This document shows, piece by piece, positions 10,334-28,931 of a DNA stretch of 64,000 nt. The DNA is from Anaerolineales bacterium. Lineage in GTDB: Bacteria > Chloroflexota > Anaerolineae > 4572-78 > J111. Every line of letters begins with the position of its first letter. The stretch's first letter is position 1. Under the pieces are notes generated by a model. It ran no database searches. It was given only the letters and a program-made list of their open reading frames with translations, and was not told where the DNA came from. Location: contig JABTUW010000003.1 of NCBI GenBank assembly GCA_015075185.1, forward strand, positions 868,001 through 932,000, given 5' to 3'. The position numbers and the translations under genes are program-made.

Positions 10334-13300
10334 ATGACCAACACCGAAACCGTCACTCCACACGACTGGATGAGTCTGCTTCACGAAATCACTGTAGCAC
10401 TGAATGCCGATCTTGATCTCGACTCTATCCTCAGCACTGCTGTAACGTTTGCCGACCATCTGGGTACTGGCTTGTGTGAGATTTACTTGCAGGCTGAAAA
10501 CGGTGATGTCTATTTCAAAAGTTCTCATCCTAAAAAGAATGATCTTACCGGCGTCGAGCGGCAAAGCCTCGTTCGCGCCACTTTGACCAGCGGCTTGGCC
10601 GCATCAGTTTTACAAACTGGCCAGGCTGTTCTGGTCTTGGATGCAAACACCGACTCACGCTGGCTCTCATCAGCGCCCTTCCCGGCAAACCAGGGTACAA
10701 ACGGATATGCGACTCCTGCCCGTTCCATAATTTGTGCCCCCCTCCTGGTTGGAACTAATCAACTCCGGGGAGTTTTCACTATTCTTCACCCTCAGCCCAA
10801 TCAGTTTGACGAGCAAGACTTATTCTTATTGAAAGCGATTGCCATGCAAATTGCCATCGCTCTCAAAAATACAACCCTACTGACCGACCTCAAGAATAGT
10901 CTGTACGAAAGCCATCTTATCCTTGATATTAGCCGCAGGCTCTCAGGGGCGCTAAGTCTCAATGATGTTTACAATGTCCTGATCCAGAGCGTGATCACCA
11001 TTGGCGCTGAACGCTGTTCCCTGCATATCTGTGATGAAATTGACCTCAACAATTTACCTACCCGCAGCGAAGTTGTTGCTGTTGGTGATGTTGATCCAGC
11101 CAGCCGCAACGAGGGGGTAGGCTATCGCTTCTCCATTATTGACTATCCTGCCTTGTATGACCTGGTTTGTACTCAGGAAACCCTCATCATTGAAGATGTT
11201 ACTTCAGACGAACGTTTGGCTGTTGCCGAGCGGGAGTTTCTACAAAAATTCGGGGCGCGCAGCCTGGTAGTTAATCCGCTGGTTACCCGGGGCCATGTGG
11301 TTGGGTTGATCTCTATTGAATACAGAACTCGTCACCTTTTTAGTGAGCGCGAGCTGGCGCTCTACCGCACCATCTGCAACCAGACAACGATTGCTATTGA
11401 ACATGCCCGCCAGGTGCAGCGGACTGAGGCTGCCCTGGCCGAAACGCAAACCCTCTACCGAGCTGGCCGAGTTCTGGCAGGCGCGGCTGATTTACAGGAA
11501 ATTTTGCAGGAAGCCCTGATCGAATATGTTTATAGCCTGGGCCTGGATCAAGGGGGAGTTACCCTGGTTAGCCCCGATAGACAATACGGCCAATTAATGG
11601 CTTACGTGCAAGAGGGCCAACTACAAAACGTTGAAAAGTTAAAGTTTCCCCTGGATGAAAGTATTCCCTATCAGCAGATTCTTCTTTCAGGGCGTCCTTT
11701 TGTCAGCGTAGATGCGCCGAGTGACCCCAGCCTGAGGGGGTTCTACAGCTTCAATCAACAGGGCATGCCCAAGTCACTGCTGGAAGCTCCCATGATTATT
11801 CGGGGTGAAACCATCGGCTGGATTGGCGCTGACTCGGTCAAAGAGTATCGTAACTTTACCCAACAGGAAATAGACTTGGCTCGGGCAATGGCTGATCAGA
11901 TCGCCATCACCATTCAAAATCGCCGACTACTGGAGCAAACAGAGCGCCGGGCGACCCGCTTAAAGACTGTCGCCAAAGTGGGCGAATCGGTCTCCAGAAT
12001 GCTTGATCTGGGGGAGATTTTCAACAGCACAGTAGACCTGATTCGAGACCGTTTTGGTTTTTATCATGTTTCTATCTTTTTATTGGACGAAGCCCGCGAG
12101 TGGGCAGTCGTCCATGCCTCAACCGGCGAAGTTGGTAAAATTATGGTCGAAAAGCCGCACAAGCTCCAAGTGGGCAGCAACTCGATTGTGGGCTATGTGA
12201 CCGCTAATGCCCGGCCGCGGATTGCCCTCGATGTAGGTGAGGATGCGGTTCACTTTCAGAACCCCCTTTTACCTGATACGCGCTCTGAAATGGCGCTGCC
12301 ACTGCTAACGCGCGGCATCGTCACCGGCGCCCTGGATGTGCAGAGTACCGAGGTTAACGCCTTCAGTGACGAGGACATTGATACCTTGCAGATTATGGCT
12401 GATCAACTGGCCAACGCCATTGAAAACGCCCGACTCCTGCAAACGGCCCAGGACAGCCGCATTTTTATGAAGAGCATCATTGACCAGATTCCTGACCCAA
12501 TTTTCATTAAAGATACCGATCATAAATGGGTCGTAGTGAATCGCGCTTTTGCCGAGGGTTTATTAGGTCTGCCGGAGGAAAAAGTTATCGGCCGCGTCGA
12601 TTATGATTATGTATCCAAAGAAGAAGCCGATTGGTTCTGGGCGCAAGACACTCAACTATTTGAAACCGGTGAAACTCAAGAAACAGAGGAGTCAATTACT
12701 GATGCCCAAGGTAATATCCGGACTCTTTACACTCGTAAAATTCCTTTGATGGGGGCTGACGGTAAACCGGAATATCTCATTGGAATTATCAACGACATTA
12801 CTGAGCGGAAGCGAGCGGAGCAGGCATTGCAAGAAGCTTTCGCCAGAACTCAATCGCTTTATCGCATCAGTGGCGCCTTAGCGACTGCGACCGATCAACG
12901 GGCGGTTGCAGAAATTGTTCTGGGTGAGTATCTTAACCTCCTTAATTTAAACCAGGGCGCTATTTTACTGCTTGATAAGACCGGCCACTCCCATGAGACG
13001 GAGGCTTTGTATGTTAATGGACAGGCGATTGAACCCCAGTTGACTGTTCCTGCTGTGCCAGATGCCATCTTGCAGCACTTGCAGCAGCATCCCAGCCCAT
13101 TGATTATTAACGACACCCACGAACACCCGTTGACCAAAAATAGGCTTGAGGGTCTGGGCGAGACAGAAGCTATGCTGGCCATACCGTTAGTTTTCGGCAA
13201 AAAGGTAGCCGGAGTGATTACCGTTGGCTCAACTGAAAAAGGACATACCTTTTCGCAGAATAACATCGAGCTTGGCGAGACGATTGCCGACCAAATGGCG

Positions 13301-14623
13301 ATATGGCTGGAAAACCGCCGACTCCTCGCTGAAACGCAGTATCGCTCCGAGCGTTTGCAGACCGCGGCCGAGGTTTCTCGCGCGGCCAGTTCCATCCTCG
13401 ATGTCCAGCAGTTGATCAATACCTCGGTCAACCTTATCCGCGATCAATTTGACTTCTACTATGTGGGACTATTCATGGTGGATGAAGCCGGGGAGTGGGC
13501 CGTTCTCCGGGCCGGTACAGGGGAGGCCGGGCGCATTCAACTCGAAAACAAGCACAAACTCAAAATCGGCAGCGGCTCGATGATCGGCTGGTGTGTCGAA
13601 AACCGGCAGGCTCGGATTGCGCTGGACGTCGGTCAGGAAGCGGTTCGGTTTCAAAATCCATACCTGCCCGACACACACTCCGAGATGGCCCTGCCCCTCA
13701 TCAGCCGGGATGAGGTGATTGGCGCGCTGACCGTGCAAAGCACTGCGCAGGGCGCTTTCTCGGCTGAAGATATCACCTTGCTCCAAACAATGGCCGACCA
13801 ACTGGCCAATGCCATCCAAAATGCGCGGCTGTTTGAGCAAACTCAAAGAGCTTTGGCCGAAACTGAAAATCTTTACCGTATCACCCAAGAACTGCTCTCG
13901 GCGCATAATGAAGAAACCGTTTACCGGCTGGCAATGGAAGCTATTGCCCAATCAGGAGTTGACTCAGCTTCTGTCTATACCTACCTGGATACCCAAAATA
14001 CAAATGTGGCCGGACAAATCCTGGAACAAAAAGCGATCTGGGCGACCCCCGGCTATCCTACTTTGCCCAACGGCACCCGTTTTAAGGCCAGCGACATAGT
14101 CATTGAAGGCATCATCCCTCAGCACGGGGCGTTAGTTATTGAAGATACAAACAGTGACCTCCCTTACTTGACGGAGCAACTGCGGCGAGAGTTGACCCGA
14201 ATGAATATTAAATCCCTGGTAGCGCTCCCTCTCTCTACCTATCAAAGCCGGCTGGGTTTCTTATTGGTCGCCTATCGAACCCAAAATAAAACTTTTACGC
14301 CCCAGCAGGTCAAGTTTTACACCACCGTTGCCCAGCAAATGGTTGCTTCCCTGGAGAATTTACGGCTCCTGGATGCCTCACAGCGACGCGCCCGGCGCGA
14401 AGAAATCATCCGTGAAATTACAGGCAAAATCAGAAGCGCGACGAATGTCGAAGATATTTTGCAGACGACGGTGACGGAACTGGGTAAGGTTCTGGGCGCG
14501 CCACGCGGTGGAATTACTCTCGGTATCCACTCCCCTGAGCGTCAAGCCAGCGAACACCACCCAACTCCAGGACCTAGACCTGCTTTAGCCGGCAGTAGAA
14601 AAGGCAAGAATCATGGTCAATAA
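10334..14623 (+). CDS. giant GAF/PAS sensor protein without kinase domain
   Basis: The 1429-residue cytosolic protein has about seven GAF domains (roughly 10-190, 195-370, 375-540, 545-715, 840-1000, 1000-1180, 1180-1350) and one PAS domain (about 715-835, IPDPIFIKDTDHKWVVVN ... ITERKRAEQ). It ends in the beginning of another GAF (REITGKIRSATNVEDIL) that is cut short. Several GAFs share the block RIALDVGxxAVxFxNP, then LPDTxSEMALPLI. No HisKA, HATPase, receiver or cyclase domain is present. Linkers between GAFs should form signalling helices. Its last 11 bases overlap the next gene. It is either a pure ligand-sensing scaffold working with the kinase at 19777, or the first part of a split kinase. 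Confidence 0.88.
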   Translation: MTNTETVTPHDWMSLLHEITVALNADLDLDSILSTAVTFADHLGTGLCEIYLQAENGDVYFKSSHPKKNDLTGVERQSLVRATLTSGLAASVLQTGQAVLVLDANTDSRWLSSAPFPANQGTNGYATPARSIICAPLLVGTNQLRGVFTILHPQPNQFDEQDLFLLKAIAMQIAIALKNTTLLTDLKNSLYESHLILDISRRLSGALSLNDVYNVLIQSVITIGAERCSLHICDEIDLNNLPTRSEVVAVGDVDPASRNEGVGYRFSIIDYPALYDLVCTQETLIIEDVTSDERLAVAEREFLQKFGARSLVVNPLVTRGHVVGLISIEYRTRHLFSERELALYRTICNQTTIAIEHARQVQRTEAALAETQTLYRAGRVLAGAADLQEILQEALIEYVYSLGLDQGGVTLVSPDRQYGQLMAYVQEGQLQNVEKLKFPLDESIPYQQILLSGRPFVSVDAPSDPSLRGFYSFNQQGMPKSLLEAPMIIRGETIGWIGADSVKEYRNFTQQEIDLARAMADQIAITIQNRRLLEQTERRATRLKTVAKVGESVSRMLDLGEIFNSTVDLIRDRFGFYHVSIFLLDEAREWAVVHASTGEVGKIMVEKPHKLQVGSNSIVGYVTANARPRIALDVGEDAVHFQNPLLPDTRSEMALPLLTRGIVTGALDVQSTEVNAFSDEDIDTLQIMADQLANAIENARLLQTAQDSRIFMKSIIDQIPDPIFIKDTDHKWVVVNRAFAEGLLGLPEEKVIGRVDYDYVSKEEADWFWAQDTQLFETGETQETEESITDAQGNIRTLYTRKIPLMGADGKPEYLIGIINDITERKRAEQALQEAFARTQSLYRISGALATATDQRAVAEIVLGEYLNLLNLNQGAILLLDKTGHSHETEALYVNGQAIEPQLTVPAVPDAILQHLQQHPSPLIINDTHEHPLTKNRLEGLGETEAMLAIPLVFGKKVAGVITVGSTEKGHTFSQNNIELGETIADQMAIWLENRRLLAETQYRSERLQTAAEVSRAASSILDVQQLINTSVNLIRDQFDFYYVGLFMVDEAGEWAVLRAGTGEAGRIQLENKHKLKIGSGSMIGWCVENRQARIALDVGQEAVRFQNPYLPDTHSEMALPLISRDEVIGALTVQSTAQGAFSAEDITLLQTMADQLANAIQNARLFEQTQRALAETENLYRITQELLSAHNEETVYRLAMEAIAQSGVDSASVYTYLDTQNTNVAGQILEQKAIWATPGYPTLPNGTRFKASDIVIEGIIPQHGALVIEDTNSDLPYLTEQLRRELTRMNIKSLVALPLSTYQSRLGFLLVAYRTQNKTFTPQQVKFYTTVAQQMVASLENLRLLDASQRRARREEIIREITGKIRSATNVEDILQTTVTELGKVLGAPRGGITLGIHSPERQASEHHPTPGPRPALAGSRKGKNHGQ

Positions 14624-16319
14624 AACCCTACAAAACGTTCAAGCTAAACTTAAGGAATTGGCGCTGACTCTGCCCCAGCTTCAGACAACCGGGCAGTGGA
14701 CTGAAATCCTGCACGAATTGGAGGGGTTGTCGCAAAATACTCAGCGCCAAGAATTGTTGCTGGAAGCAGTAGCAGCTATCTCCGATGCGGCCAGTTCAAT
14801 TTTGGATGTGGATGACCTGCTCCGGGTAGCGGTTAACTTGATTCAGGATTACTTTGATCTTTACTATGTCGCCATCTATCTCGTTGATGAGTCAAACCAG
14901 CATATCAAGCTGCGAGCCGGCACCGGCGAAGCAGGACAGCTCTTGTTACAACAGGAGTTTCCACGAAAAGTTGGCGAGGAGTCAATGGTTGGCTGGTCTG
15001 TTCAGCATCGCCAATCGTTGATTGCTTTAGATGGGGGCGCGGGCGCCGCACATTTTCAAAATCCCTATTTGCCCGATACTCGCTCCGAAATGACGTTGCC
15101 TCTCATCAATCGAGGACAGGTGATTGGGGCGCTGGATTTGCAGAGTTCAGAACCAAGCGCCTTCGCGCAGGACGACATTACCCTGTTTCAAACTCTGGCC
15201 GATCAACTGGCCAATACCATTCAAAACACCCAACTCTTCGCCGTGAATGCCCTCTTACTCGATCAGGCGGAGAACAACCGGCGCTTCCTTAAGACTGTCA
15301 TCGAGCATATTCCCGACCCCATCTTTATTAAAGATAAGCATCACATTTTACTGGAAATGAATCAGGCCAATGCTCAGGTGATTGGCCGCCCTCAACAGGA
15401 ACTAATCGGCAAGACAGATCGGGACTTTTTACACCCGGACCTGGCCGAAAAATTTTATCGGCGTGATAAAGAAGTCTTTGCTACCAACCAAATCTTCGAA
15501 GCCGAAGATAAAACAATCTGGGGAGATGGCCGGGAACATATAGGTCATACCCGGCTCATTCCAATCCCCAACGCCGCCGGCAAGCCCGAGTATCTGCTGG
15601 GCATCACCCACGATGTCACCGAAGTGCGGGCGCGGGAAGCTGAACGTGAACGGATGTTGGCCGAAACGGCCGCCCTCTATTTGGGCAGTCGGGCCATCGC
15701 CAGCGCCTTGAGTGAGCGCCAAATCTTCGAGGCTATCTTTGACCAGATTCGCCTGGCTGAGCCCTGCGAGATTTCGGCCTTTCGCTTTAATCTGGTTGAT
15801 AATGAACCTGTTTGGGCCGAGTTGAAATTTAACTGGCAAAAGCGCAATACCCCTTCTTATGCGGTTGGGACGCGTTTTTATTTGCCGGAATATGACCAAA
15901 GCAAGTTGCTCACCAGCAACATGCCGCTTTTTATTGACGACATTGCCACTGCTGAGAAGCTGTCTGAGACGGAACGAGCCAGTTTTGAACCCACTGGCGC
16001 CTGTTCAGCAGCCATTCTGCCTTTGGCGGCAGCCAATCAACAACTGGGAGCCATCCTGGTTTACTTTACTCACCCCTATACCTTTACCGAAGAGGTACAG
16101 CGCCTCTGGCTGGCCACGGCCGACCAGGTGTATATTGCCCTCATTAACCGCCAGTTGATCGAGGAGGCCGCTTACCGAGCCACTCGCATGGAAACCGCAG
16201 CCGAGGTAGCCCGGGCCGCCAGTTCCGTTCTAGAAGTGCAAGATTTGCTTGATTCAGCCGTAGCCTTGATCTGTGACCGTTTTGAGCTGTATTACGTGGG
16301 CGCGTTTTTTGGTGGATGA
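14613..16319 (+). CDS. GAF/PAS sensor protein, N-terminal part (broken from the frame at 16329)
   Basis: This 568-residue frame encodes a GAF domain (about 55-215), a PAS domain (about 225-345, IPDPIFIKDKHHILLE), a second GAF (350-510) and the start of a third. It stops at TGA 16317 inside the third GAF, right after ELYYVGAF. The sequence beyond can be read in a neighbouring frame as LVDEAKEWAVL, exactly what the sister GAFs carry, and returns to the original frame at AGTGLAGQIQ. So an extra T in the T6 run at about 16306-16311 and a missing A near 16334-16337 would create this stop. With both corrected, 14613-19706 is a single gene of about 1700 codons. It has no kinase domain. Start: ATG 14613, overlapping the previous stop. 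Confidence 0.8.
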   Translation: MVNKTLQNVQAKLKELALTLPQLQTTGQWTEILHELEGLSQNTQRQELLLEAVAAISDAASSILDVDDLLRVAVNLIQDYFDLYYVAIYLVDESNQHIKLRAGTGEAGQLLLQQEFPRKVGEESMVGWSVQHRQSLIALDGGAGAAHFQNPYLPDTRSEMTLPLINRGQVIGALDLQSSEPSAFAQDDITLFQTLADQLANTIQNTQLFAVNALLLDQAENNRRFLKTVIEHIPDPIFIKDKHHILLEMNQANAQVIGRPQQELIGKTDRDFLHPDLAEKFYRRDKEVFATNQIFEAEDKTIWGDGREHIGHTRLIPIPNAAGKPEYLLGITHDVTEVRAREAERERMLAETAALYLGSRAIASALSERQIFEAIFDQIRLAEPCEISAFRFNLVDNEPVWAELKFNWQKRNTPSYAVGTRFYLPEYDQSKLLTSNMPLFIDDIATAEKLSETERASFEPTGACSAAILPLAAANQQLGAILVYFTHPYTFTEEVQRLWLATADQVYIALINRQLIEEAAYRATRMETAAEVARAASSVLEVQDLLDSAVALICDRFELYYVGAFFGG

Positions 16320-16328
16320 AGCCAAGGA

Positions 16329-19300
16329 ATGGGCGGTATTAAAGCCGGCACCGGCCTGGCCGGTCAAATTCAACTGCAAAAAAGGCATCGCCTGAAAATC
16401 GGCGGGGAGTCGATGATTGGCTGGAGTGTTTACCACCGCCACCCGCGTATTGCCCTGGACGTCGGCAAGGAAGCTGTCCGCTTTCAAAACCCGGATTTAC
16501 CCCAAACCCGCTCTGAAATTGCTTTGCCGCTCATTTATCATAATGAGGCCATCGGTGCTTTGACAGTTCAGAGCGATGAACCGGCTGCTTTCAGTCGAGA
16601 AGATATTATCGTCTTGCAAACCATGGCCGATCAGTTGGCCAATGCTGTCAAAAGTGCGCAGTTATACGAACAAGCCCGCCAGGAGCTTGGCGAACGGAAG
16701 CGAGCCGAGGAAGCGCTGCGCGCTTCCGAGGTCCTTTATCAATCGTTGGTGGATAATATCCCCCAGAACATCTTGCGCAAAGATGGGGCCGGCCGCTTTG
16801 TCTTTGGCAACAAGAGTTTCTGCAACAGCCTGGGCCTATCCCTGGAGGAGCTGATCGGCAAAACCGACTTCGATTTTTATCCTCCCGAATTGGCCCAAAA
16901 GTATCAACAGGATGATCGAAGGGTCATCGAAACCGGCCAACTGTTTGAAACTGTGGAGGAGCATCAAACAAAAGCCGGGGAGGAACTGTTTGTGCGGGTG
17001 GTGAAGTCACCCATTTTTGACGCCTCCGGCGTAACTGTGGGTATACAGGCCATCTTCTGGGACATCACCGAGCGCAAGAAAGCCGAGGAGGCGCTGCGGG
17101 AAAGTGAACAGCGGCTTGAACTGGCCCTGCACGGAGCGGATCTGGGCTTGTGGGATTACAATGTGCAGACGGGCGTGGATATTGTTGATGAGCGGGCAGC
17201 CGCCATGCTTGGCTATCTGCTCGATGAAGTTGAACCGTGTGTGGAGTGGTGGGACAGCCGGACCCACCCCGATGATCTGCCCCAGGCGCAAATAATCTGG
17301 AATGACCATCTCGCCGGTAAAACGGCTTTTTATGAGTGTGAATATCGCCTGCGAACCAAGACCGGCGAGTGGATATGGATTCTGGATCGCGGCAATGCAG
17401 TGGAGTGGGATGAAGCCGGCCGGCCTCTCCGCGTGGCCGGGACGCACCTGGACATTACCGAACGCAAACACGCGGAAGCTTTATTAACCGGCCAGCAGCA
17501 AGTCTTTGAAATGATTGCCAAAGGAGCCTCACTGCAAGCTACGCTTAACGTTTTGGCCGAATTTATCGAGGGTTTATCTGATAAAACCTTCTATGCTTCC
17601 ATTATGCTGCTGGATGGCGCTGGAACTCATTTACGCAGTGGGGCAGCCCCTAGCCTGCCTCAAAGTTTTGTTCAAGCGATAGATGGCCTTGTTATCGGGC
17701 CGAAAGTTGGCTCGTGTGGTACGGCAGCTTATCGCGGGGAACAAGTAATCTCTCCGGATATTGCTGCTGATCCATTGTGGGCAGATTACGCCGACTGGAT
17801 CATTTCCACTTATGGCCTGCGCGCCTGTTGGTCCACCCCTATCCTGGCGACCGATGGCAAGGTATTGGGCACTTTTGCCATGTATCATGCCAAACCTCAT
17901 ACCCCGGTGGCAGCCGATCTGGAGCTAATTGACACAGCCGTTCAGTTAGCCGGGATTGCTATTGAGCGCAAACAGGCTGAAGAGGCTTTAGAAAAGGCTT
18001 TAGCCAGAACGCAGCTCCTCTACAACATTAGTGAAGCTCTGGCTACTCTGATCAATCGGCGGGCTGCTTTTGAAACGGTACTGGGTGAGTATCTCCTCTT
18101 GCTCAACCTCAAGCGGGGTGGGATCATGTTACTCGATCCAGCCGGTGAAGACAATATGATGGAAGCGCTTTACATTGATAACAAGGTTGTTGAGCCTGAT
18201 CTCGTTTTCCCTGCCAAAGAAGATTTGGTGGCTCAACATTTACTACAAAATCCCTTCCCCCTTGTAATCGAAGATGTACCAACCCATCCTTTGACCCAAC
18301 ACAATCAGTCTCTGCGGGGCCGGGTTGAAGCGATGCTTCTCATTCCCATCGTCACCCGGGGCGAGGTGGTGGGTATCGTTGGGGCTGATGCAACCGAAAA
18401 AGGCCACATTTTTACGCCCGAGGATATTGAAATTGGCAAAGTGCTGGCCGACCAGTTGGCCATCTGGCTGGACAACAACCAACTGCTCACCGAAGCCCAA
18501 TACCGCTCAGAGCGTCTGCAAACCGCGGCCGAGGTTTCTCGCGCCGCCAGCTCCATTCTCGACGTGAACGAATTGAGCAACACTTCGGTCAACCTCATCC
18601 GGGACCAGTTCGATTTTTACTATGTCGGTTTGTTTCTGGCAGATGAGGCCAGAGAATGGGCTGTTCTTCGGGCTGGCACCGGCGAGGCAGGACGGATTCA
18701 GCTTGAAAACAAGCACAAACTCAAGATTGGCGGCGAGTCAATGATCGGCTGGTGTATTCAAAACCGCCAGGCTCGCATTGCCCTGGATGTGGGCCAAGAA
18801 GCGGTCCGGTTTCATAACCCGCATTTGCCCGACACCCACTCGGAGATGGCTCTGCCGTTGATCAGCCGGGATGAGGTGATTGGCGCGTTGACGGTGCAAA
18901 GCACTGAACGCGGCGCTTTCTCGGCTGAAGATATTACCCTGCTGCAAACTATGGCCGACCAACTGGCCAACGCCATCGAAAATGCGCGCTTGTTTGAAAG
19001 CGTTACTCAGGCTCAGTACGAAGCTGAAGCCCTCCTGAAAGACACCCAGGCTCTGCAGCAGTTCAGCCAAATGTTGGCGGGCACCTTGCAAGTCCAGGAA
19101 ATTATGAACATCTTCTTTGAAGCCTGCGAAACTGTTTTGGGTTTCGAATATGCTCAATTTTGTCTGGTGGATACATATCAACGCCGGGTCAAAGCCATGG
19201 CCGGATTCGGAGTATCCGGGTCTCAAATTAAACGGGCCAACCGTTCCCTGGATAGTCAAGATATTATGGCTGATATAATCAGAACAGGCCAAACCGAAAT

Positions 19301-19706
19301 TATTACCGGTTGGGATGACCGTTTTGACCGCGAGCTCTTTGAAGCCGAACAGCATGCCCACTGGATCAGAGTATTTACACCGGTAACACTGCGCCAAGAG
19401 AATATTGGCCTGATTGAAGCCGGTTTTAACAAAAGCATTGACAAATCTATTGAAGAGGCTCAGATCAGATTACTGCGGGCTTTTATTGACCAGACCGCCC
19501 TGGCCTTGGATAACGCCCAACGTTATGAAGCCAGCCAAAAAGCAGCCCGGCGTGAGGCTCTGATCAAAGAGATTACCACCAAAGTAAGAGCTTCGACTAA
19601 CGTGGATACGATCCTCCAGACAACGGTCAAAGAACTGGGAGATGCATTGGGTAGTCAACGAGCTTATGTGCATCTAGTCGCCCCTGCGAACGGCGATACT
19701 CATTAA
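16329..19706 (+). CDS. GAF/PAS sensor protein, C-terminal part of the same gene
   Basis: The apparent ATG at 16329 lies mid-domain and is unlikely to be a real start: the frame opens inside a GAF domain at AGTGLAGQIQLQ and is in the same frame as 14613-16319. In order: the rest of that GAF, a PAS (about 135-255, NIPQNILRKDGAGRFVF), a PAS_3-type PAS (255-380, ending DITERKHAE), a GAF (390-545), a GAF (550-725), a GAF nearly identical in protein to one in the preceding gene (725-895), and a last GAF (910-1070) plus the start of another (REALIKEITTKVRASTNVD). There is no HisKA, HATPase or output domain. Together with the 10334 protein it would present some 15 ligand-binding modules next to the kinase at 19777. 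Confidence 0.82.
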   Translation: MGGIKAGTGLAGQIQLQKRHRLKIGGESMIGWSVYHRHPRIALDVGKEAVRFQNPDLPQTRSEIALPLIYHNEAIGALTVQSDEPAAFSREDIIVLQTMADQLANAVKSAQLYEQARQELGERKRAEEALRASEVLYQSLVDNIPQNILRKDGAGRFVFGNKSFCNSLGLSLEELIGKTDFDFYPPELAQKYQQDDRRVIETGQLFETVEEHQTKAGEELFVRVVKSPIFDASGVTVGIQAIFWDITERKKAEEALRESEQRLELALHGADLGLWDYNVQTGVDIVDERAAAMLGYLLDEVEPCVEWWDSRTHPDDLPQAQIIWNDHLAGKTAFYECEYRLRTKTGEWIWILDRGNAVEWDEAGRPLRVAGTHLDITERKHAEALLTGQQQVFEMIAKGASLQATLNVLAEFIEGLSDKTFYASIMLLDGAGTHLRSGAAPSLPQSFVQAIDGLVIGPKVGSCGTAAYRGEQVISPDIAADPLWADYADWIISTYGLRACWSTPILATDGKVLGTFAMYHAKPHTPVAADLELIDTAVQLAGIAIERKQAEEALEKALARTQLLYNISEALATLINRRAAFETVLGEYLLLLNLKRGGIMLLDPAGEDNMMEALYIDNKVVEPDLVFPAKEDLVAQHLLQNPFPLVIEDVPTHPLTQHNQSLRGRVEAMLLIPIVTRGEVVGIVGADATEKGHIFTPEDIEIGKVLADQLAIWLDNNQLLTEAQYRSERLQTAAEVSRAASSILDVNELSNTSVNLIRDQFDFYYVGLFLADEAREWAVLRAGTGEAGRIQLENKHKLKIGGESMIGWCIQNRQARIALDVGQEAVRFHNPHLPDTHSEMALPLISRDEVIGALTVQSTERGAFSAEDITLLQTMADQLANAIENARLFESVTQAQYEAEALLKDTQALQQFSQMLAGTLQVQEIMNIFFEACETVLGFEYAQFCLVDTYQRRVKAMAGFGVSGSQIKRANRSLDSQDIMADIIRTGQTEIITGWDDRFDRELFEAEQHAHWIRVFTPVTLRQENIGLIEAGFNKSIDKSIEEAQIRLLRAFIDQTALALDNAQRYEASQKAARREALIKEITTKVRASTNVDTILQTTVKELGDALGSQRAYVHLVAPANGDTH

Positions 19707-19776: not shown

Positions 19777-22700
19777 ATGAGCAAATTACAAATTTCGGCG
19801 ACTAAATTTACCGAGTTTACCCCTAAATACGCTCGTCAACTTGAAGTAATCCAGAAGATTAGCCAACAGGTCAACGCTGATGAAAAAATAGAACGGGTGC
19901 TGGAGTTGGCGCTGTACTCTCTGACCCATTTACTGGGTTATCAGGCAGTCCAAATCTACCAGGTGTCGCCTTCTGGGAAAGATTTGTGGCTCTTTGGCAG
20001 CCAACCTGCGGCTCAAGCCCCGCATCTTTTTCCCATTGACGAAGACAGTATTGTAATTCAGTCTTTCAGGCAGAGGGAATTAGTCTATCGTCCCGATATT
20101 AATCAGGGGTCGCACTCATCCTACCCTCAGCCGACCAGCGAGCCACTAGCAGTCGTAACTTCAGAGGTGGCTGTACCCCTGCAATCAGCTCAAGTCTGTT
20201 TGGGGATCTTACACGTGCAGAGCTGTAAATTAGACGGGTTTGACAAAATTGATCTAGTATTTCTGGGTAGCCTGGCTGACCTGCTGGCATCGGCGATTAA
20301 GGGTTCTCAAACCGTACAGCAACTCCAAGACGATTTGCAGGGGATGAGGATTTTATCTAACCAGCAACTCCATGAAGACTTAGGCAAGCGGGGGGAGATG
20401 GCCGGTGAAACGGCACTGGGTTATGAGTATGACCGGACCAGGGTTTCAGAGATAGGAAAGCTGTCCCCTTCGACCCCATTAGCTCTGGCGAGAGAACAAG
20501 TAGGCGTCAGAGCCGTCCAAGAGGGAGCAGTTACAGAATTAATAACTCCTATCAAGCTTTACGGGGAAACGATTGGAGTCATTGGGATTGAAGAAACTTC
20601 GCCAGAGGGGGACTCGTTAACTGACGAGATCAGCCTGCTGGAAGAAGTAAGCGCCCAGGTAGCTTTAGCCATTGAAAATGCCCGCTTGTTACAGCAAACC
20701 CAGGCGCGAACGAAAGAACTCTCTGTTCTCTTTGAGGCCAGCCGCCAGCTCTCTGAAACGATTGATTTGCAGCAAATCTATGAGATATTGGCCGACAATA
20801 TCAAGAACTACCTTCGAGCCGATGTGGTCGCGATTTGGCTAGTTAACAAGGCCAAGACTCACTTTGAACAGGTTGTGTCAAAGGGAGAAAAGAGCGATCA
20901 TAAACAATCGGTTGAATTTATAGAGGACTCAGCTTCGCTCCGGCAAATCTTGAAACAACCTACCCTCATGGTTGAGCATCTGGCCGATCCGGCGCTGCCG
21001 TTCTTAATGACCCGCAGTGCCTCAGGTCAGGCCGCGGAGCAGGCAGAGACAGCCGCATTACATACGTTAACCACTTTCCCGCTAATGATTCGTAACAGGC
21101 TCATGGGTATTTTAAGGGTCAAGCACCATAATCAACGGCGTGAGTACACCAAGAATGAACTGCAATTGGCCGAGGCGATCATTGCCCAAGTCACTGTTGC
21201 GATTGAAAATGCTCAGCTTTTCCAGCAAACCCAAACTGCTCTCTCCGAAACACAAAAGCTGTATGAAATCAGCCGCTCTCTGGCCGAAAGCACCGATCTG
21301 GATGATATCTTCGCCGTAATCGTCGAAAGCGTAAAGGTGTACGATATTGACCGGGTCAGTATTTCATTGCTGGACCGGTCTGAATCAGGCTCAATTGAAA
21401 CAGTAACCATTGTGGCCAGTTGGGACCGGGAGTCTGACCAGCTCTTGCCCGTTGGTTCTAAATTCTCGGCCGATGATTACTCGCTGGTCCGTGCTTTTAC
21501 CCAGCCCCCCTTTGAGCCGCTTATTGCGGAAGATTTAAGCCATTCAGAGGGCCAAGACCCGCGCATGGATGATGCTTTTCGGTGCTTTATGCAAGAGAAA
21601 CTGAAGGCAGTGACCCTCTTCTCCGCGCCGATGTTTCTGGGAACCGAATATAAGGGGCTTCTCTCAATTTCCACCCGCCAGCCCCATCATTATACCAAGC
21701 AGGAAATTCGGATTTATCAAACTCTGACCGACCAGGCCATCACGGCCATCGAGAATTTGCGTCTTTATGAAGCGACCAAGCAGAGCCTCTATAACTCGGA
21801 AATATTGTCTCACCTGAGTCAAGATTTGCTCGTGGCCGACACCGCTGAAACGATTTACAACCTGACGCTGCAAGCCATTGCCGATACCAACCCCGACCGA
21901 GGGGCAGGGATTTTTATGTACGATCAAATCGAGGGCGGGGTTGAATTGGAATTAGTTGCCTTGTGGGATAACCCCCAGCAGCAGTGGCCTCCTATTTCAC
22001 CTGGCGCTCGTTTCTCCACCGAGGAATTGGGGTTAAACCCCTTATTGAAAACAGGGCAAACCGTAGTCTCAAATAGAGCGACCGCCGATGATCGCTTTTC
22101 TGACCTGTTGCGCCAACTGCTGATGATTATGCAGATTAATACCCTGGTAGCCGTACCTATTTGGCTTAACCGGGAGGTGGGGGGTTTTATCTTAATTGGC
22201 AACCAGAAATTTGAACCCTTCCCTCCCGAGAGGGTTCGCCTCTATGAAGATATTGCCCGGCAAATTTCCGGCGCTCTGGAGAATCGGCGTTTGTTTGAGG
22301 AAACTCAATACCGGGCCACCTTGCTCCAAACGGTAGCCGAAGTTTCTCAAGTGGCTACCAGTTCCCTGGAACTGGAAACATTACTGCCCCAAACCGTGGA
22401 ATTGATTCGGGACCGCTTTAGCTTTTATCATGTTTCTATCTTCCTGGTAGACGAATACCAGAAACATGCCGTTGTCCATGCCTCCACCGGTGAAGTGGGC
22501 CGGCAGATGCTGGTGAATCAACACAAGCTCAAAGTAGGTGGCAAGAGCATCGTGGGGACGGTCACCGAAACAGGTAAACCACGAATTGCCCTGGATACGG
22601 GCAAAGATGCCGTCTCTTTTGATAATCCGCTTTTGCCCGATACTCGCTCGGAAATGGCCCTGCCCCTGATTGCCCGGGGTCGAGTTATTGGCGCACTTGA

Positions 22701-25700
22701 TGTCCAAAGCACCCAACGCGCCGCCTTTGCGGAGAGTGATATCACCATTCTGCAATCTCTGGCTGATCAGTTGGCGAATGCTATCGAAGCCGCCCGTTCT
22801 TACCAGGCTTCGCAGCAAGCGCTGGAAGAAGTGCGCAAAACTCATGAGTACTACCTAAACGAACAGTGGGGTGCTTACCTCAACGAACGGCAAGCAGGGC
22901 ATCGTTATCGCCTCACCGAAAAAGGTCTTACCAGCCAAGATGAAGCAGTCGCCTGGTCTAACGATGAAATCAACCGGATTATCGAAATGAAGCAGCCGGT
23001 TCTGCTTCCGGCCAGCACGCCCGAAACTCTCTTTGAGGCGCAGGGGTCAAACGGCAAAAGCGATGTATCCAATGAGCGAGAGGAAACATCCGTACTGCTT
23101 GCTCCTTTAACACTTCATGGGCAAACTGTGATTGGGGCCATTGATTTTGAAGTACCTGTCCAGGATAAAGTTGATGAAGATGATTTGGTGCTTATTGAGG
23201 CCGTAGCCAGCCAGGCGGCCCAAGCGATTGAAGCAGTACGCCAGTTTGAGCAAACCCAGGCCGCCCGCCAGGAAGCAGAAGCTTTATATCAAGTCAGTCG
23301 CACCCTGGTCGCCACGGAAGATGAGCAAGAGATGTTATACACCGTCCTGCGGGAAATGTTAACTACCCTGGGGTTAGTGCAAGGCGGGGTACTCTTCTTT
23401 GAGGAAGACCGAAAATTTGGTAAACTTCATGCGCTCTTCATTAATGGCGAACCGGCTGAACCTGGTTTGCGTTTTCCTGTTGAGGGTAATCCATCTTATG
23501 AAAAGCTTATTGCCACTAAGCGACCGGTAGCCATAGAAGATGCGGCAAATGATCCTTTATTGGCAACCGTGAGAGAGATCAATATTCCTCTGGGGATTGC
23601 TTCGCTGCTGCTGGTTCCAATTATCATTAACGACGAAGTGATTGGGGCCTTGGGCGCCGACGCAATTGGCAAAAAACATGTCTTTAGCGAACGAGAAATT
23701 AACCTGGCCATCGCCATGGCCGACCAGCTTTCAATTATGCTCCAAAACCGCCGGCTCCTTGAAGAAACCAAGCAGCGAGCCGTGCAATTGCAGACAAGTT
23801 CAGATGTGGGCCGGGTCGCGACCTCTATCCTCGACCAGGAAACCATGCTGAGTCAGGCGGTCGAACTGATTCGAGAACGCTTTGGCTTTTATCACGTCCA
23901 GATATTTCTTATTGATGAAGCCAAGCAGTTTGCTATACTTTACAAAAGCACGGGTGAGGCGGGTCGAAAGCTGCTGGCTATAGGTCATAAATTAGCTGTT
24001 GGAGGTCAAAGTGTGATCGGACAGGTAACTTACCAGCGCCAACCTATCGTCGTCCGCGATACAGATGCCGTCGAAGCTGGCACGATCCGTCACCGCAACG
24101 AATTTTTGCCCGAAACCCGGGCCGAGCTGGCTATTCCGCTCCAGGTGGGCGATATACTGATTGGTGCGTTGGATGTGCAGAGCACCTCACCCAATGCTTT
24201 TCCCAGCGAAGAAATATCTGTGCTGGAAACTCTGGCCGCTCAATTAGCAGTTGCCATCCAAAATGCGCGCGCCTTTGCCGAACAGCAACAAACAGCCGAA
24301 CGCCTTAAAGAGATTGACAAACTCAAGACCCAGTTCTTGGCTAACATGAGCCACGAGTTACGCACACCGCTCAATTCGATCATTGGCTTTTCACGGGTAA
24401 TCTTAAAAGGTATTGATGGGCCTTTAACCGAGCTGCAAAAAACAGACTTGACCTCGATTCACAATAGCGGGCAGCACCTGTTGGGCCTGATTAATAACAT
24501 TCTTGACCTCTCCAAAATTGAGGCGGGTAAGATGGAGCTGAATTTTGAAGAGGTTGAACTTGAACCCATCATCAAGGGAGTCATGTCAACAGCCATTGCC
24601 CTGGTTAAAGACAGGCCGATTATGCTGCACCAGGATATTCCCGAAAATTTACCGGCGATATGGGCCGATCCGACCCGGATCCGGCAAATTATCCTGAACT
24701 TGGTGTCTAATGCCTGTAAATTTACCGATGAAGGACGAGTGACAATCTCGGCCCACACCGATCAGGAGAAAGTCACGATTACCGTCAGCGACACGGGTAT
24801 TGGCATTCCTGAAGAGAATTTGGCCAGTATCTTTGAAGAATTCACCCAGGTTGACTCCAGTACAACCCGCAAAGTGGGTGGCACCGGCTTGGGCTTGCCC
24901 ATTAGCCGCCACTTTGTGGAGATGCACCAGGGCCGAATTTGGGTTGAAAGCAAACTTGGTTACGGTTCTACCTTTAACTTCTTCATTCCGATCAAATCGG
25001 TTGAAGAACAGGAGGTCGAGGCGCCAAATATACTAACCGCCGAAACCCGAAAAGATGGGAATGGAAAATTAATTGTCGCTATAGACGATGATCCGGGCGT
25101 GATTACCCTTTATGAACGCTTCCTGGAACAACAAGATTATAAAGTGGTTGGCATCAATCACAGTCATGATGTCTTGCCGCAAATAAAAGAGTTGGCTCCA
25201 GCCGCGATTCTGCTCGATGTGTTGATGCCCGAAACAGATGGCTGGGGGGTTCTGAGAACGCTCAAAGATGACCCCGCGACCAAGAATATTCCCGTTATTA
25301 TCTGTAGTATTGTCAGTGATAAGAACCGGGGATTTTCTCTGGGCGCCGCCGACTACCTAGTGAAGCCCATTGTCGAAAATGAACTCGTCAAAGCTCTTAA
25401 ACACCTGGAGATGCAATCTAAAGAGCAGGTCAAGGTTTTAGTTGTTGACGATCAAGCCGATGATATTTTGCTGATCCGCCGTATTCTCGAGGCCCAACCC
25501 AATTACAAAATCTTTGCAGCGAACAATGGCCGCGAGAGCCTGGAGCTGGTCCAACGCGTCGAACCTGATCTTATCATTCTTGATCTAACCATGCCCGAAA
25601 TGGATGGTTTTACGGTGGTTGAGGCGCTTAAGCATAACGAGAAAACACGGGGCATCCCGATTATTATTGTCAGCGCCAAAGAACTCAGTCCAGCGGAACA

Positions 25701-25815
25701 TGGGACTCTCACGGGGCAGGTTGAAGTACTTCTGCGGAAAGGTATCTTTACCGAAAATGAATTACTAGAGGATGTCAGTCAAGCTTTAAAACGTATTCAT
25801 GAGGCGACTGTCTAA
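19777..25815 (+). CDS. giant multi-GAF hybrid histidine kinase with two receivers
   Basis: The 2012-residue cytosolic protein carries eight or nine GAF domains (about 20-1505), some short or degenerate (200-310, 1025-1160). HisKA follows with MSHELRTPLNS (H1526) and HATPase with NACKF, DTGIGIP and GTGLGLP. Two C-terminal receivers follow: the first with AIDDDPG and D1814 in LLDVLMPETDG, the second with VVDDQAD and D1936 in ILDLTMPEMDG. The second ends in a form (VEVLLRKGIFTENELLEDV) matching the receiver fused to threonine synthase just downstream. With no His-phosphotransfer domain here, phosphate would move from H1526 to a receiver in cis or to the stand-alone receivers. ATG 19777 is preceded by GAGGAAG. 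It is the central kinase of the block. Confidence 0.93.
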   Translation: MSKLQISATKFTEFTPKYARQLEVIQKISQQVNADEKIERVLELALYSLTHLLGYQAVQIYQVSPSGKDLWLFGSQPAAQAPHLFPIDEDSIVIQSFRQRELVYRPDINQGSHSSYPQPTSEPLAVVTSEVAVPLQSAQVCLGILHVQSCKLDGFDKIDLVFLGSLADLLASAIKGSQTVQQLQDDLQGMRILSNQQLHEDLGKRGEMAGETALGYEYDRTRVSEIGKLSPSTPLALAREQVGVRAVQEGAVTELITPIKLYGETIGVIGIEETSPEGDSLTDEISLLEEVSAQVALAIENARLLQQTQARTKELSVLFEASRQLSETIDLQQIYEILADNIKNYLRADVVAIWLVNKAKTHFEQVVSKGEKSDHKQSVEFIEDSASLRQILKQPTLMVEHLADPALPFLMTRSASGQAAEQAETAALHTLTTFPLMIRNRLMGILRVKHHNQRREYTKNELQLAEAIIAQVTVAIENAQLFQQTQTALSETQKLYEISRSLAESTDLDDIFAVIVESVKVYDIDRVSISLLDRSESGSIETVTIVASWDRESDQLLPVGSKFSADDYSLVRAFTQPPFEPLIAEDLSHSEGQDPRMDDAFRCFMQEKLKAVTLFSAPMFLGTEYKGLLSISTRQPHHYTKQEIRIYQTLTDQAITAIENLRLYEATKQSLYNSEILSHLSQDLLVADTAETIYNLTLQAIADTNPDRGAGIFMYDQIEGGVELELVALWDNPQQQWPPISPGARFSTEELGLNPLLKTGQTVVSNRATADDRFSDLLRQLLMIMQINTLVAVPIWLNREVGGFILIGNQKFEPFPPERVRLYEDIARQISGALENRRLFEETQYRATLLQTVAEVSQVATSSLELETLLPQTVELIRDRFSFYHVSIFLVDEYQKHAVVHASTGEVGRQMLVNQHKLKVGGKSIVGTVTETGKPRIALDTGKDAVSFDNPLLPDTRSEMALPLIARGRVIGALDVQSTQRAAFAESDITILQSLADQLANAIEAARSYQASQQALEEVRKTHEYYLNEQWGAYLNERQAGHRYRLTEKGLTSQDEAVAWSNDEINRIIEMKQPVLLPASTPETLFEAQGSNGKSDVSNEREETSVLLAPLTLHGQTVIGAIDFEVPVQDKVDEDDLVLIEAVASQAAQAIEAVRQFEQTQAARQEAEALYQVSRTLVATEDEQEMLYTVLREMLTTLGLVQGGVLFFEEDRKFGKLHALFINGEPAEPGLRFPVEGNPSYEKLIATKRPVAIEDAANDPLLATVREINIPLGIASLLLVPIIINDEVIGALGADAIGKKHVFSEREINLAIAMADQLSIMLQNRRLLEETKQRAVQLQTSSDVGRVATSILDQETMLSQAVELIRERFGFYHVQIFLIDEAKQFAILYKSTGEAGRKLLAIGHKLAVGGQSVIGQVTYQRQPIVVRDTDAVEAGTIRHRNEFLPETRAELAIPLQVGDILIGALDVQSTSPNAFPSEEISVLETLAAQLAVAIQNARAFAEQQQTAERLKEIDKLKTQFLANMSHELRTPLNSIIGFSRVILKGIDGPLTELQKTDLTSIHNSGQHLLGLINNILDLSKIEAGKMELNFEEVELEPIIKGVMSTAIALVKDRPIMLHQDIPENLPAIWADPTRIRQIILNLVSNACKFTDEGRVTISAHTDQEKVTITVSDTGIGIPEENLASIFEEFTQVDSSTTRKVGGTGLGLPISRHFVEMHQGRIWVESKLGYGSTFNFFIPIKSVEEQEVEAPNILTAETRKDGNGKLIVAIDDDPGVITLYERFLEQQDYKVVGINHSHDVLPQIKELAPAAILLDVLMPETDGWGVLRTLKDDPATKNIPVIICSIVSDKNRGFSLGAADYLVKPIVENELVKALKHLEMQSKEQVKVLVVDDQADDILLIRRILEAQPNYKIFAANNGRESLELVQRVEPDLIILDLTMPEMDGFTVVEALKHNEKTRGIPIIIVSAKELSPAEHGTLTGQVEVLLRKGIFTENELLEDVSQALKRIHEATV

Positions 25816-25845: not shown

Positions 25846-27546
25846 GTGACCAAATCTTTCTCCTATAAATGTACTTCTTGCGGCTACACCGATGAGTACA
25901 CAAAGCTAGTAGGAACTTGCCCCGAGTGTGGCGGAGAATGGCTTGAGCTAATCTACAATCTTAATGAAACAGCCTACATTTGGCGGCATGAACTGCCTCA
26001 GCGGGACCGCACGATGTGGCGCTACTGGGAGTTGCTGCCCATCCTGGACAAGAAGCACATTGTCTCGATGGGTGAAGGCGGGACCCCTTTACTTCGGGCC
26101 GAAAATCTGGGAGCGATGTTAGGGCGGCGCAATATCTTTATTAAAGATGAGCGGCAAGGCCCCACCGCATCTTTTAAGGATAGACAAGCCTCGCTGGCTA
26201 TCTCGGTATTGAAGGAAGCGGATATTAAGGAGTTAGTTGTCGCCTCTACCGGGAATGTGGCTATTTCCTACTCGGCCTACTGCGCCCGCTCCGGGATCAA
26301 ATTGTGGGCCTTTTTAGACAGCAATGTTCCTCATGAAAAAATGCGTGAGGTAACGCTGTATGGCACCGAAGTCATTAAGGTCTCCAGCAACTACGATCGC
26401 ACCAAACAGGTGGCGGCTCAATTTGCCAAGTACCGCAGTCTGTTTCTGGATAAAGGGGTTAAAGGAATTTCGGCGCGGGAGGCGATGAAAACGCTGGCTT
26501 TTGAGATTGCCGAGCAAATAGGCCGGATTCGCGGGGTCGGCTGGGCTGCCCCGGATTGGTACATCCAGGCAGTCAGCGGCGGGATGGGGCCGATTGGAGT
26601 GTGGCAGGGCTTTTATGAGTTATACCGCATGGGTCTCATCAAAAAAATACCCAAATTGGCCATCATCCAAACCGACGGCTGCGCTCCTATGGTCAACAGT
26701 TTCCACAAAGGGCTGGAAACCTGTGAAATTGTCCAAAATCCTGCCAGCATTATCAATGTTCTGGCCACCGGCAATCCCGGTCCAGCTTATCCCTATCTGC
26801 GCAATCTGGTACTGACCTATGGCGGCGCCTTTGTCAAAGTAGACGATCAAGCCTCTTTTAGAGCCATGCGGGTGATGGCCCAGATGGAGGGCCTCTCTAT
26901 GGAACCGGCCGCCGCCGTGGCTTGCGCCGGATTAATCAAAATGGTGCAGGAGCAGTTGATTAGCCCTAACGAGACGGTGGTGATCAATGCCTCCGGTCAC
27001 ACCTTCCCGGTAGAAAAGCAAATTCTGGAAAATGAAATCGTCAGGAGTCACATCCGGGTCCAGAATCTTGAAAAAGAGGTGGTCGAAGAGGATAACAAAA
27101 CTGAGCCTCGCCAACGAACCAGTGAAGCGCTACCCCAGGAAGGACTCCTGACTGCGTTGCGGCGGCTGGATGACCGCGTTCAAAGCATCGTTATTATCGA
27201 AGATGAACTGGATGCCCGCGTTTTGCTGCGCCGTATTTTACAGTACACCCGCAAATACAATATCTTTGAAGCGGCTGACGGCAACAGCGGCATCAACCTT
27301 ATCCGCACCGAAAAGCCCGACCTGGTCCTGTTGGATTTGATGCTGCCGGGGATAGATGGCTTTACCATTCTTGACATGATGAAAGCCGACGTAGAATTGC
27401 GTGACATTCCGGTCATTGTCATTACGGCTAAAGACCTGACCAGCAAGGATTATAAACGGCTCTCCGGGCGGGTGGAGTCTCTCCTCCAAAAGGGCGAGTT
27501 TATGGAGGAGGAGTTATTTGAAAGTATTCGTGACGTGCTTAAGTAA
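25846..27546 (+). CDS. threonine synthase-like PLP enzyme fused to a receiver domain
   Basis: Residues 1-405 match threonine synthase, the fold-type II PLP enzyme turning O-phosphohomoserine into threonine. They comprise an N-terminal zinc ribbon (CTSCGY ... CPECGG), the GEGGTPLL motif, the PLP lysine in TASFKDRQ (K111), STGN for phosphate, and SGGMGP. After a linker of about 30 residues a complete receiver follows (about 437-566: VIIEDELDAR, phospho-acceptor D497 in LLDLMLPGIDG, and ITAKDL). Here the usual K is the one in LLQKGEF, as in the second receiver of the kinase upstream. Start GTG 25846, 30 bases after the kinase stop. The fusion would let the kinase control, or be controlled by, the enzyme. 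Whether the enzyme makes threonine or acts on a related phosphoester is not decided by the sequence. Confidence 0.9.
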   Translation: MTKSFSYKCTSCGYTDEYTKLVGTCPECGGEWLELIYNLNETAYIWRHELPQRDRTMWRYWELLPILDKKHIVSMGEGGTPLLRAENLGAMLGRRNIFIKDERQGPTASFKDRQASLAISVLKEADIKELVVASTGNVAISYSAYCARSGIKLWAFLDSNVPHEKMREVTLYGTEVIKVSSNYDRTKQVAAQFAKYRSLFLDKGVKGISAREAMKTLAFEIAEQIGRIRGVGWAAPDWYIQAVSGGMGPIGVWQGFYELYRMGLIKKIPKLAIIQTDGCAPMVNSFHKGLETCEIVQNPASIINVLATGNPGPAYPYLRNLVLTYGGAFVKVDDQASFRAMRVMAQMEGLSMEPAAAVACAGLIKMVQEQLISPNETVVINASGHTFPVEKQILENEIVRSHIRVQNLEKEVVEEDNKTEPRQRTSEALPQEGLLTALRRLDDRVQSIVIIEDELDARVLLRRILQYTRKYNIFEAADGNSGINLIRTEKPDLVLLDLMLPGIDGFTILDMMKADVELRDIPVIVITAKDLTSKDYKRLSGRVESLLQKGEFMEEELFESIRDVLK

Positions 27547-27611: not shown

Positions 27612-28931
27612 TTGCCTGAAACCCCATTGGCCAATCCCAAAATATTATATATTGATGATGACTCGCTCAACAGAACACTGGTCAAAAGAGTGCTCAGCGG
27701 GTATCATTTTGAGGTCATCGAGGCAGCCACGGGTCTGGAAGGATTAACCATTGCCCGCAACGATCCACCCAACCTGATTCTCATGGACATTAATATGCCT
27801 GGCCTCGACGGTCACGAAACAACCACCCGGATGCGCACTATCCCGGCGCTGGAGCGCGTCCCAATTATTGCCCTCACCGCCCGCGCCGCCCGGGGTGAAC
27901 GCGAACTGGCTCTGGCGGCTGGCTGCGATGGGTACATTACCAAACCTATTGATATCGATGATTTTCCGCACAAAATCATTTCCTATCTTAAAGGCCGCCG
28001 GGATACCATTTCCAGTGATGAGCGTCAGCTTTATCTGGGCCACTACAGCCACAAACTGGTTGAGCGGCTGGAAGCCAAAGTACTTGAACTGGAAGAAGCA
28101 AACAGCCGCCTGCAAAAAATAGACAAGGTCAAGTCAGACTTTATCACGGTAGCGGCGCACGAACTCAGAACACCTCTGACCCTGGTTTACGGCTATGCCC
28201 GCCTTCTGCAAATGGTTGCTCAGGAAACAGGTCAGGCTGAGCTTGTTGAGGGCGGTGTATCGGATTTGGCGGGTAGAATTTACCGCTCCGTCCAGCGGCT
28301 GAACGAGGTAGTGAACGATATTCTCAACATTTCGCTCATCGAAGCTAACGAAATGCGTCTACAGACGGAATGGGTCAATCTGGCTGAGATCATCAACACG
28401 GCCTTGCAAGAATTAAACCCGGCCAAAAATGGTCGTCAGCTTAACATTTCCGTGGAGACCCTGGATACTTTGCCCAACATCATGGGTGACAAAGAACGAT
28501 TACGCCAGTCTTTTTGGAATATTTTGAGCAACGCCATAAAATATACACCGGATGGGGGCTTTATCTCGGTTAAGGGCTGGCTCACCGGCTCCGCGCCCGC
28601 CGATGCCGAACTGCCTACTTCTTCCTGCACTGCTGACGAAGAGGGGATCATCATCTTGGTAAAGGACTCCGGGATGGGGATTGATCGCCTGGAGCAAAAA
28701 GAAATTTTTAAACAATTTTATGTAGTCGGCGATACTTCATACCACAGCTCCAGCAAAACTGCCTTTGGGGGAGGCGGCATCGGGCTGGGACTACCGATCA
28801 CCCGGGGAATCATCGCTGCGCACGGCGGGCGGGTCTGGGTGGAGAGTGAGGGGCGTAATCTTACAACCTATCCGGGCAGCAAATTCTATGTTTTCTTGCC
28901 CTTAAAATCCCCGCCCCAGCAGACGATGTGA
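27612..28931 (+). CDS. receiver-histidine kinase
   Basis: The 439-residue protein starts at TTG 27612, with GGAG 8 bases upstream. An N-terminal receiver (LYIDDDSLNR, D59 in LMDINMPGLDG, ITKPIDIDDFP) is linked by a coiled coil (LEAKVLELEEANSRLQKID) to HisKA with VAAHELRTPL (H183). The HATPase domain has NAIKYT, KDSGMGID and GIGLGLP. There is no sensor or membrane segment, so its input must arrive through the receiver, for example from the 2012-residue kinase. That makes it a candidate relay or feedback element. It overlaps the maf-like gene by 4 bases (GTGA). Confidence 0.93.
   Translation: MPETPLANPKILYIDDDSLNRTLVKRVLSGYHFEVIEAATGLEGLTIARNDPPNLILMDINMPGLDGHETTTRMRTIPALERVPIIALTARAARGERELALAAGCDGYITKPIDIDDFPHKIISYLKGRRDTISSDERQLYLGHYSHKLVERLEAKVLELEEANSRLQKIDKVKSDFITVAAHELRTPLTLVYGYARLLQMVAQETGQAELVEGGVSDLAGRIYRSVQRLNEVVNDILNISLIEANEMRLQTEWVNLAEIINTALQELNPAKNGRQLNISVETLDTLPNIMGDKERLRQSFWNILSNAIKYTPDGGFISVKGWLTGSAPADAELPTSSCTADEEGIIILVKDSGMGIDRLEQKEIFKQFYVVGDTSYHSSSKTAFGGGGIGLGLPITRGIIAAHGGRVWVESEGRNLTTYPGSKFYVFLPLKSPPQQTM

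Follow-up and report, generated by a model that had tools for sequence, protein, structure and literature searches.

A threonine-synthase-like PLP domain fused to a response-regulator receiver in a kinase cassette of Anaerolineae-type Chloroflexota

Why should a relative of threonine synthase be joined to the receiver of a two-component system? This question is raised by a gene at positions 25846–27546 of a 64,000-nucleotide stretch of DNA from an Anaerolineales bacterium (the window, hereafter). An earlier note on the sequence had read the gene as a threonine synthase fused to a receiver. Here, we examined the fusion, its relatives and their gene neighborhoods, and asked what the enzyme-like domain may do. 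All features of the window described below lie on the forward strand.

Domains, conservation and spread of the fusion

The gene starts with GTG and forms a single frame, open throughout, that encodes 566 amino acids: a threonine-synthase-like PLP domain followed by a receiver (TS-REC). Pfam analysis located a PALP domain at residues 73–384 (positions 26062–26997; 209 bits) and a Response_reg domain at residues 448–561 (27187–27528; 67 bits). The former was assigned to PLP fold type II from Pfam, conservation, the AlphaFold model and fold matches, and it is preceded by an N-terminal zinc ribbon with Cys 9, 12, 25 and 28 (25870–25929). It includes the PLP lysine K111 (26176–26178), N137, the SGGxGP phosphate loop at residues 244–249 and S/T383. 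The receiver carries D453, T527, K549 and the phospho-acceptor D497 (27334–27336). Between the two domains lies a linker, residues 386–441 (27001–27168), that is predicted to be disordered (pLDDT under 50). The mean pLDDT of the AlphaFold model was 83.4; its PLP domain was confident, its receiver was of mostly good confidence that dropped towards the C-terminus, and its top fold matches were threonine synthases. The open reading frame and the Pfam domains hence agreed with the earlier claim of a complete PLP domain, with its zinc ribbon and K111, and a complete receiver with D497 in one frame.

The note had proposed a search for the same fusion in related genomes, and it was indeed present in 26 of 41 near genomes: all 12 of the family, 9 of 13 further members of the order and 5 of 16 further members of the class. 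A survey of the phylum detected it in 34 of 301 genomes: besides that of the window, 26 carriers belonged to the same class and 7 to others. The fusion thus spans at least two classes, and a scan of named genomes identified it in MAGs labelled Anaerolineales, Anaerolineae and Chloroflexi. Fusions and standalone enzymes were clearly split in these searches: complete fusion genes gave E values of at most about 1e-120, standalone enzymes about 1e-64 or weaker. Occurrence outside Chloroflexota was sampled in three phyla, those of L052, L055 and L054. The matches listed for the first and the last (296 and 198 genomes) were all of standalone strength, with no fusion-strength match; none was found in the 249 genomes of the L055 phylum either, an empty answer that came without an internal positive control.

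Both Pfam domains were detected in all 58 aligned fusions. In the PLP part, the four zinc-ribbon cysteines, K111, T135, G136, N137, S244, G245, G246, G248, P249, E353 and P354 were invariant, and position 383 was always Ser or Thr. In the receiver, D453, D497 and K549 were invariant and position 527 was Thr or Ser; TS-REC thus has the acidic pocket, phospho-acceptor Asp, Thr/Ser and Lys that characterize a PF00072 receiver. Since these key residues of both parts are invariant or nearly so, selection appears to have acted for cofactor binding and for phosphorylation. On average, the commonest residue had a share of 0.72 across the PLP domain, compared with 0.63 for the receiver and 0.52 for the linker. 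Between the window protein and its nearest relative, dN was 0.035 and dN/dS was far below 1 with dS saturated, suggesting strong purifying selection on TS-REC with saturated synonymous sites. The fusion is genuine: chance, frameshift and assembly error are excluded, because the same single-frame fusion occurs in independent genomes and its dN/dS is far below 1.

Two apparent variants of the architecture were discarded. The 1157-aa frame of L100, which suggested a direct fusion to the kinase, is probably a reading-frame artefact, as the kinase is encoded in another, overlapping frame; the N-terminal extension in L069 and L125 looks like a shadow frame.

Kinase cluster and conserved gene order

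TS-REC begins 30 bases after the end, at 25815, of a hybrid histidine kinase gene (19777–25815; 2012 aa). Pfam analysis of the kinase indicated GAF domains over seven matched stretches, followed by HisKA, HATPase and two receivers; it is the predicted cognate kinase of TS-REC. The position within a kinase cluster, 30 bases past a giant hybrid kinase, had been pointed out in the earlier note and was confirmed by the end of this reading frame and its domains. Downstream of TS-REC, 27612–28931 encodes a REC-HisKA-HATPase protein. Upstream of the hybrid kinase, three consecutive genes (10334–19706) encode GAF/PAS proteins of 1429, 568 and 1125 aa; a Pfam kinase-domain match was found in none of the three, and they may be extra sensors or sensor subunits of the cluster. 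GAF proteins were also observed upstream in many related TS-REC loci.

The same genome harbors a second fusion (contig C7:379345) of 722 aa with two receivers, TS-REC-REC, whose PLP part is about 52% identical to that of the window protein. It likewise lies between a GAF kinase gene before it and a single-REC gene after it. A tree of 81 sequences placed all the fusions together in a single clade (SH-aLRT 100), which a long branch separates from the standalone enzymes; within it, clade A, with a single REC and mostly an HK-REC-REC operon, had a support of 96. In a tree of 82 receivers, which comprised only 127 columns and in which long branches were flagged, the TS-REC receivers fell with the second REC of the kinase, and the clade B solo REC fell with the REC of the clade A REC-HK; correspondingly, the receiver of 27612–28931 grouped with the single-REC gene behind TS-REC-REC. 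Because of these groupings, the two cassettes of the genome appear to be paralogues that go back to one ancestral set of HK, TS-REC and REC genes.

A multi-GAF histidine kinase gene was directly upstream of TS-REC in 40 of the 43 loci inspected (39 of 42 when one genome seen twice is counted once), mostly with a gap of under 150 bases. The following gene was often a REC or REC-HK gene, with a REC gene directly after TS-REC in 25 of 44 loci. No recognisable kinase was found near TS-REC in L069 and L125, both of one genus (f13), nor directly upstream in L072. Eight genomes from two other families (L110, L112, L113, L118, L120, L121, L127 and L128) have an EamA-type (DMT) transporter gene directly after TS-REC, and in seven of these eight loci a ParA/MinD-type ATPase gene directly preceded the kinase. 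The adjoining transporter gene fits a small-molecule product or ligand. L110 additionally has a dCache-HAMP-GAF sensor farther upstream.

Pairs of genes for NMT1/THI5-like substrate-binding proteins were detected near the kinase in two clade B loci of different families (L057, 6060–8114; L126, 1440–3376) and are possibly the extracytoplasmic input of these cassettes. Near clade B TS-REC genes, and on the same strand, L119 (7306–8529) and L129 (7370–8578) encode a standalone enzyme called PRK08197-like from its shared pocket motif rather than from an NCBIfam scan. A set of genes is conserved behind the clade B cassettes of family f1 (L057, L058, L059 and L063). In L057 it lies at 14027–16818, and its products are a protein of 581 aa without a match in Pfam, a Trypsin-co-occurring domain 1 protein and another of 152 aa. 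A metabolic gene common to all TS-REC loci inspected was not found. The lack of a shared metabolic-pathway partner would suit a sensor and an enzyme alike.

Comparison with threonine synthases

TS-REC shares fold type II, the PLP lysine and the STGN loop with ThrC (TIGR00260; 2zsj, 1uim/1v7c and 2d1f) and with PRK08197-type enzymes, at about 30% identity, and its N-terminal zinc-ribbon-like region resembles that of the PRK08197 type. It differs from both in the scores of the window protein, which lie below the curated cut-offs, in the replacement of residues on the phosphohomoserine side of the pocket and in the fused receiver. Its motif SFKDRQ corresponds to mostly SFKDRG, SFKDRA or SFKDRV in standalone enzymes, and its SGGxGP takes the place of GNAGN.

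The PLP domain of the window protein scored 149.1 bits against TIGR00260 (cut-off 167.1) and that of TS-REC-REC 156.7 bits; a distant fusion, L101, was narrowly above the cut-off at 169.7 bits. Against the PRK08197-type model NF006050 (cut-off 303), the window protein reached 248.1 bits. For none of the threonine-synthase equivalogs listed did it reach the cut-off. The earlier note had asked whether a second, normal thrC exists, and one does: C3:712537–713511 encodes a canonical ThrC, which scored 279.7 bits on TIGR00260 and so exceeds its cut-off of 167.1. Another standalone gene of the genome, C5:409365–410345, encodes a PRK08197-type enzyme and adjoins an apparent carbamate kinase gene, a call made from the open reading frame rather than by family search. 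Despite the canonical ThrC, no homoserine kinase above the cut-off of TIGR00191 or TIGR00938 was found in this genome. Among 15 genomes tested, 14 had a standalone enzyme that exceeded the ThrC cut-off, and the fusions among the matches listed did not reach it; the fusion as sole threonine synthase was rejected on this count.

To compare the pockets, all fusions were aligned with the ThrC of Thermus thermophilus (Tth) and Aquifex. The PLP-site residues and the STGN loop were retained in the fusions (K111, N137, the Gly-rich loop and S/T383). In contrast, six Tth residues were replaced in 61 of 61 fusions: T88 by Val or Ala, N154 mostly by Lys, Arg, Met or Leu, S155 by Gly, R160 mostly by Ala, Ser or Gly, N188 by Gly, and R242 by Ala or Ser. 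The position aligned with N154 differs among fusion subclades (Lys, Arg or Met). The genome's own ThrC keeps all six residues, and T88, N154, S155 and R160 are kept in L004, 1uim and 2zsj. We take these four to form the phosphate side of the phosphohomoserine pocket, an assignment made from the alignment and the T. thermophilus complex rather than from a superposition of side chains.

Because the window protein falls below the ThrC cut-offs, the pocket is replaced in the fusions and a separate ThrC is present, TS-REC is probably neither a phosphorelay-controlled threonine synthase nor the ordinary threonine maker of the cell. The earlier note's view of the enzyme as a threonine synthase was therefore not upheld, whereas its suggestion of phosphorelay control, or of a metabolite-responsive output, remains plausible for the predicted PLP domain.

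Possible roles of the PLP domain

We propose that TS-REC belongs to a dedicated two-component cassette, as a receiver protein with a PLP enzyme for an amino-acid substrate other than phosphohomoserine, and consider this reading about evenly balanced between right and wrong. The cassette, conserved in Anaerolineae-type Chloroflexota, would run from a GAF histidine kinase through TS-REC to a REC or REC-HK protein. The N-terminal domain of TS-REC would be a PLP-binding domain related to threonine synthase, with the cofactor site and the carboxylate loop preserved and the phosphohomoserine side lost, and the altered pocket may act on, or bind, a different amino acid. The kinase would phosphorylate D497, and the phosphorylated receiver, tethered by the flexible linker, may alter whether the PLP domain is open or closed, or how it oligomerises, and thereby switch the enzymatic synthesis or consumption of an amino-acid-like metabolite. 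Some observations stand against this proposal: no metabolic-pathway partner is common to all loci, the receiver is C-terminal, whereas it is N-terminal in many response regulators, and the three loci noted above have no recognisable kinase nearby (L069 and L125) or directly upstream (L072).

Control could also run in the opposite direction. TS-REC may be a ligand sensor, in which an amino acid bound as a Schiff base alters phosphorylation or dephosphorylation of the receiver and so reports amino-acid status to the GAF-kinase phosphorelay, catalysis being vestigial or absent. This is a real possibility, to which we give roughly one chance in three. The core neighbors are signaling genes (GAF kinase, REC and REC-HK), the TS-REC receiver is akin to the second REC of the kinase, which is an intermediate and not an output receiver, a canonical ThrC is encoded elsewhere in the genome, and the pocket varies by subclade at the N154 position. 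A sensor, however, could bear drift at some of the cofactor and carboxylate-loop residues, and these, including the catalytic lysine, are invariant or nearly so, which is the pattern of a working enzyme. Given the invariance of the catalytic lysine and the full cofactor site, and the frequent presence of a transporter gene next to TS-REC, an enzymatic output is somewhat more likely than a sensor.

The other explanations are weaker. It is unlikely that TS-REC is a true threonine synthase with phosphorylation controlling its activity: threonine synthases are its nearest named families and nearest folds, but the scores of the window protein, the pocket replaced in every fusion, the canonical ThrC in nearly every genome tested and the long branch of the fusion clade all argue against it. 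Still less probable is a pseudo-enzyme scaffold that uses the PLP fold solely for dimerisation or docking in a signaling complex. PLP enzymes of fold type II are usually dimers and the neighborhood consists of signaling genes, which would suit such a scaffold, but it would not need K111, N137 and the phosphate loop to be invariant over at least two classes. An accidental or artefactual fusion, by a missing stop or an assembly error, has a negligible probability, as the fusion recurs in independent assemblies from at least two classes and a second, paralogous one is present in the same genome.

Other PLP enzyme folds have been drawn into regulation, as we propose for TS-REC. In MocR, PdxR and GabR, an aminotransferase of PLP fold type I is joined to a DNA-binding HTH domain, and the moonlighting CysK regulates by complex formation. 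To our knowledge, neither the MocR-type proteins nor CysK carry a receiver, unlike TS-REC. In the searchable literature, outside which subscription papers mostly lie, we found no description of a fusion of threonine synthase and receiver or of another PLP fold-type-II output. In censuses and surveys of two-component or signaling proteins, the word 'pyridoxal' did not occur and 'threonine' occurred only in references to Ser/Thr kinases. The PLP output domain, its breadth and its paralogous cassettes look undescribed in that literature. Among response regulators, those that link a receiver to a metabolic enzyme are a recognised type, and the archaeal cases, with KaiC-like and glycosyltransferase domains, are confined to a family or genus (PMC5847659). 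TS-REC resembles such enzymatic-output regulators in combining a receiver and a metabolic-enzyme domain in one chain, with the kinase encoded alongside. It differs from the archaeal cases in its PLP fold-type-II enzyme, its spread over the class and beyond, and its paralogous cassettes.

TS-REC may represent a lineage-wide class of phosphorelay proteins in which a fold-type-II PLP domain of threonine-synthase-like ancestry, coupled directly to a receiver, serves as a covalent amino-acid sensor or as a switchable enzyme that synthesizes a signal. The class would comprise two or more paralogous cassettes that differ in their sensory partners; we hold this wider proposal tentatively, at somewhat less than an even chance. 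Automatic annotation would tend to label such proteins threonine synthase, and the label is probably wrong. The findings point to a PLP amino-acid enzyme domain under two-component control across a large, mostly uncultured lineage, in which the substrate pocket appears to have been rebuilt and the cofactor site retained. They also make it testable whether the Schiff-base site of a PLP enzyme can serve a phosphorelay as a sensor or switch.
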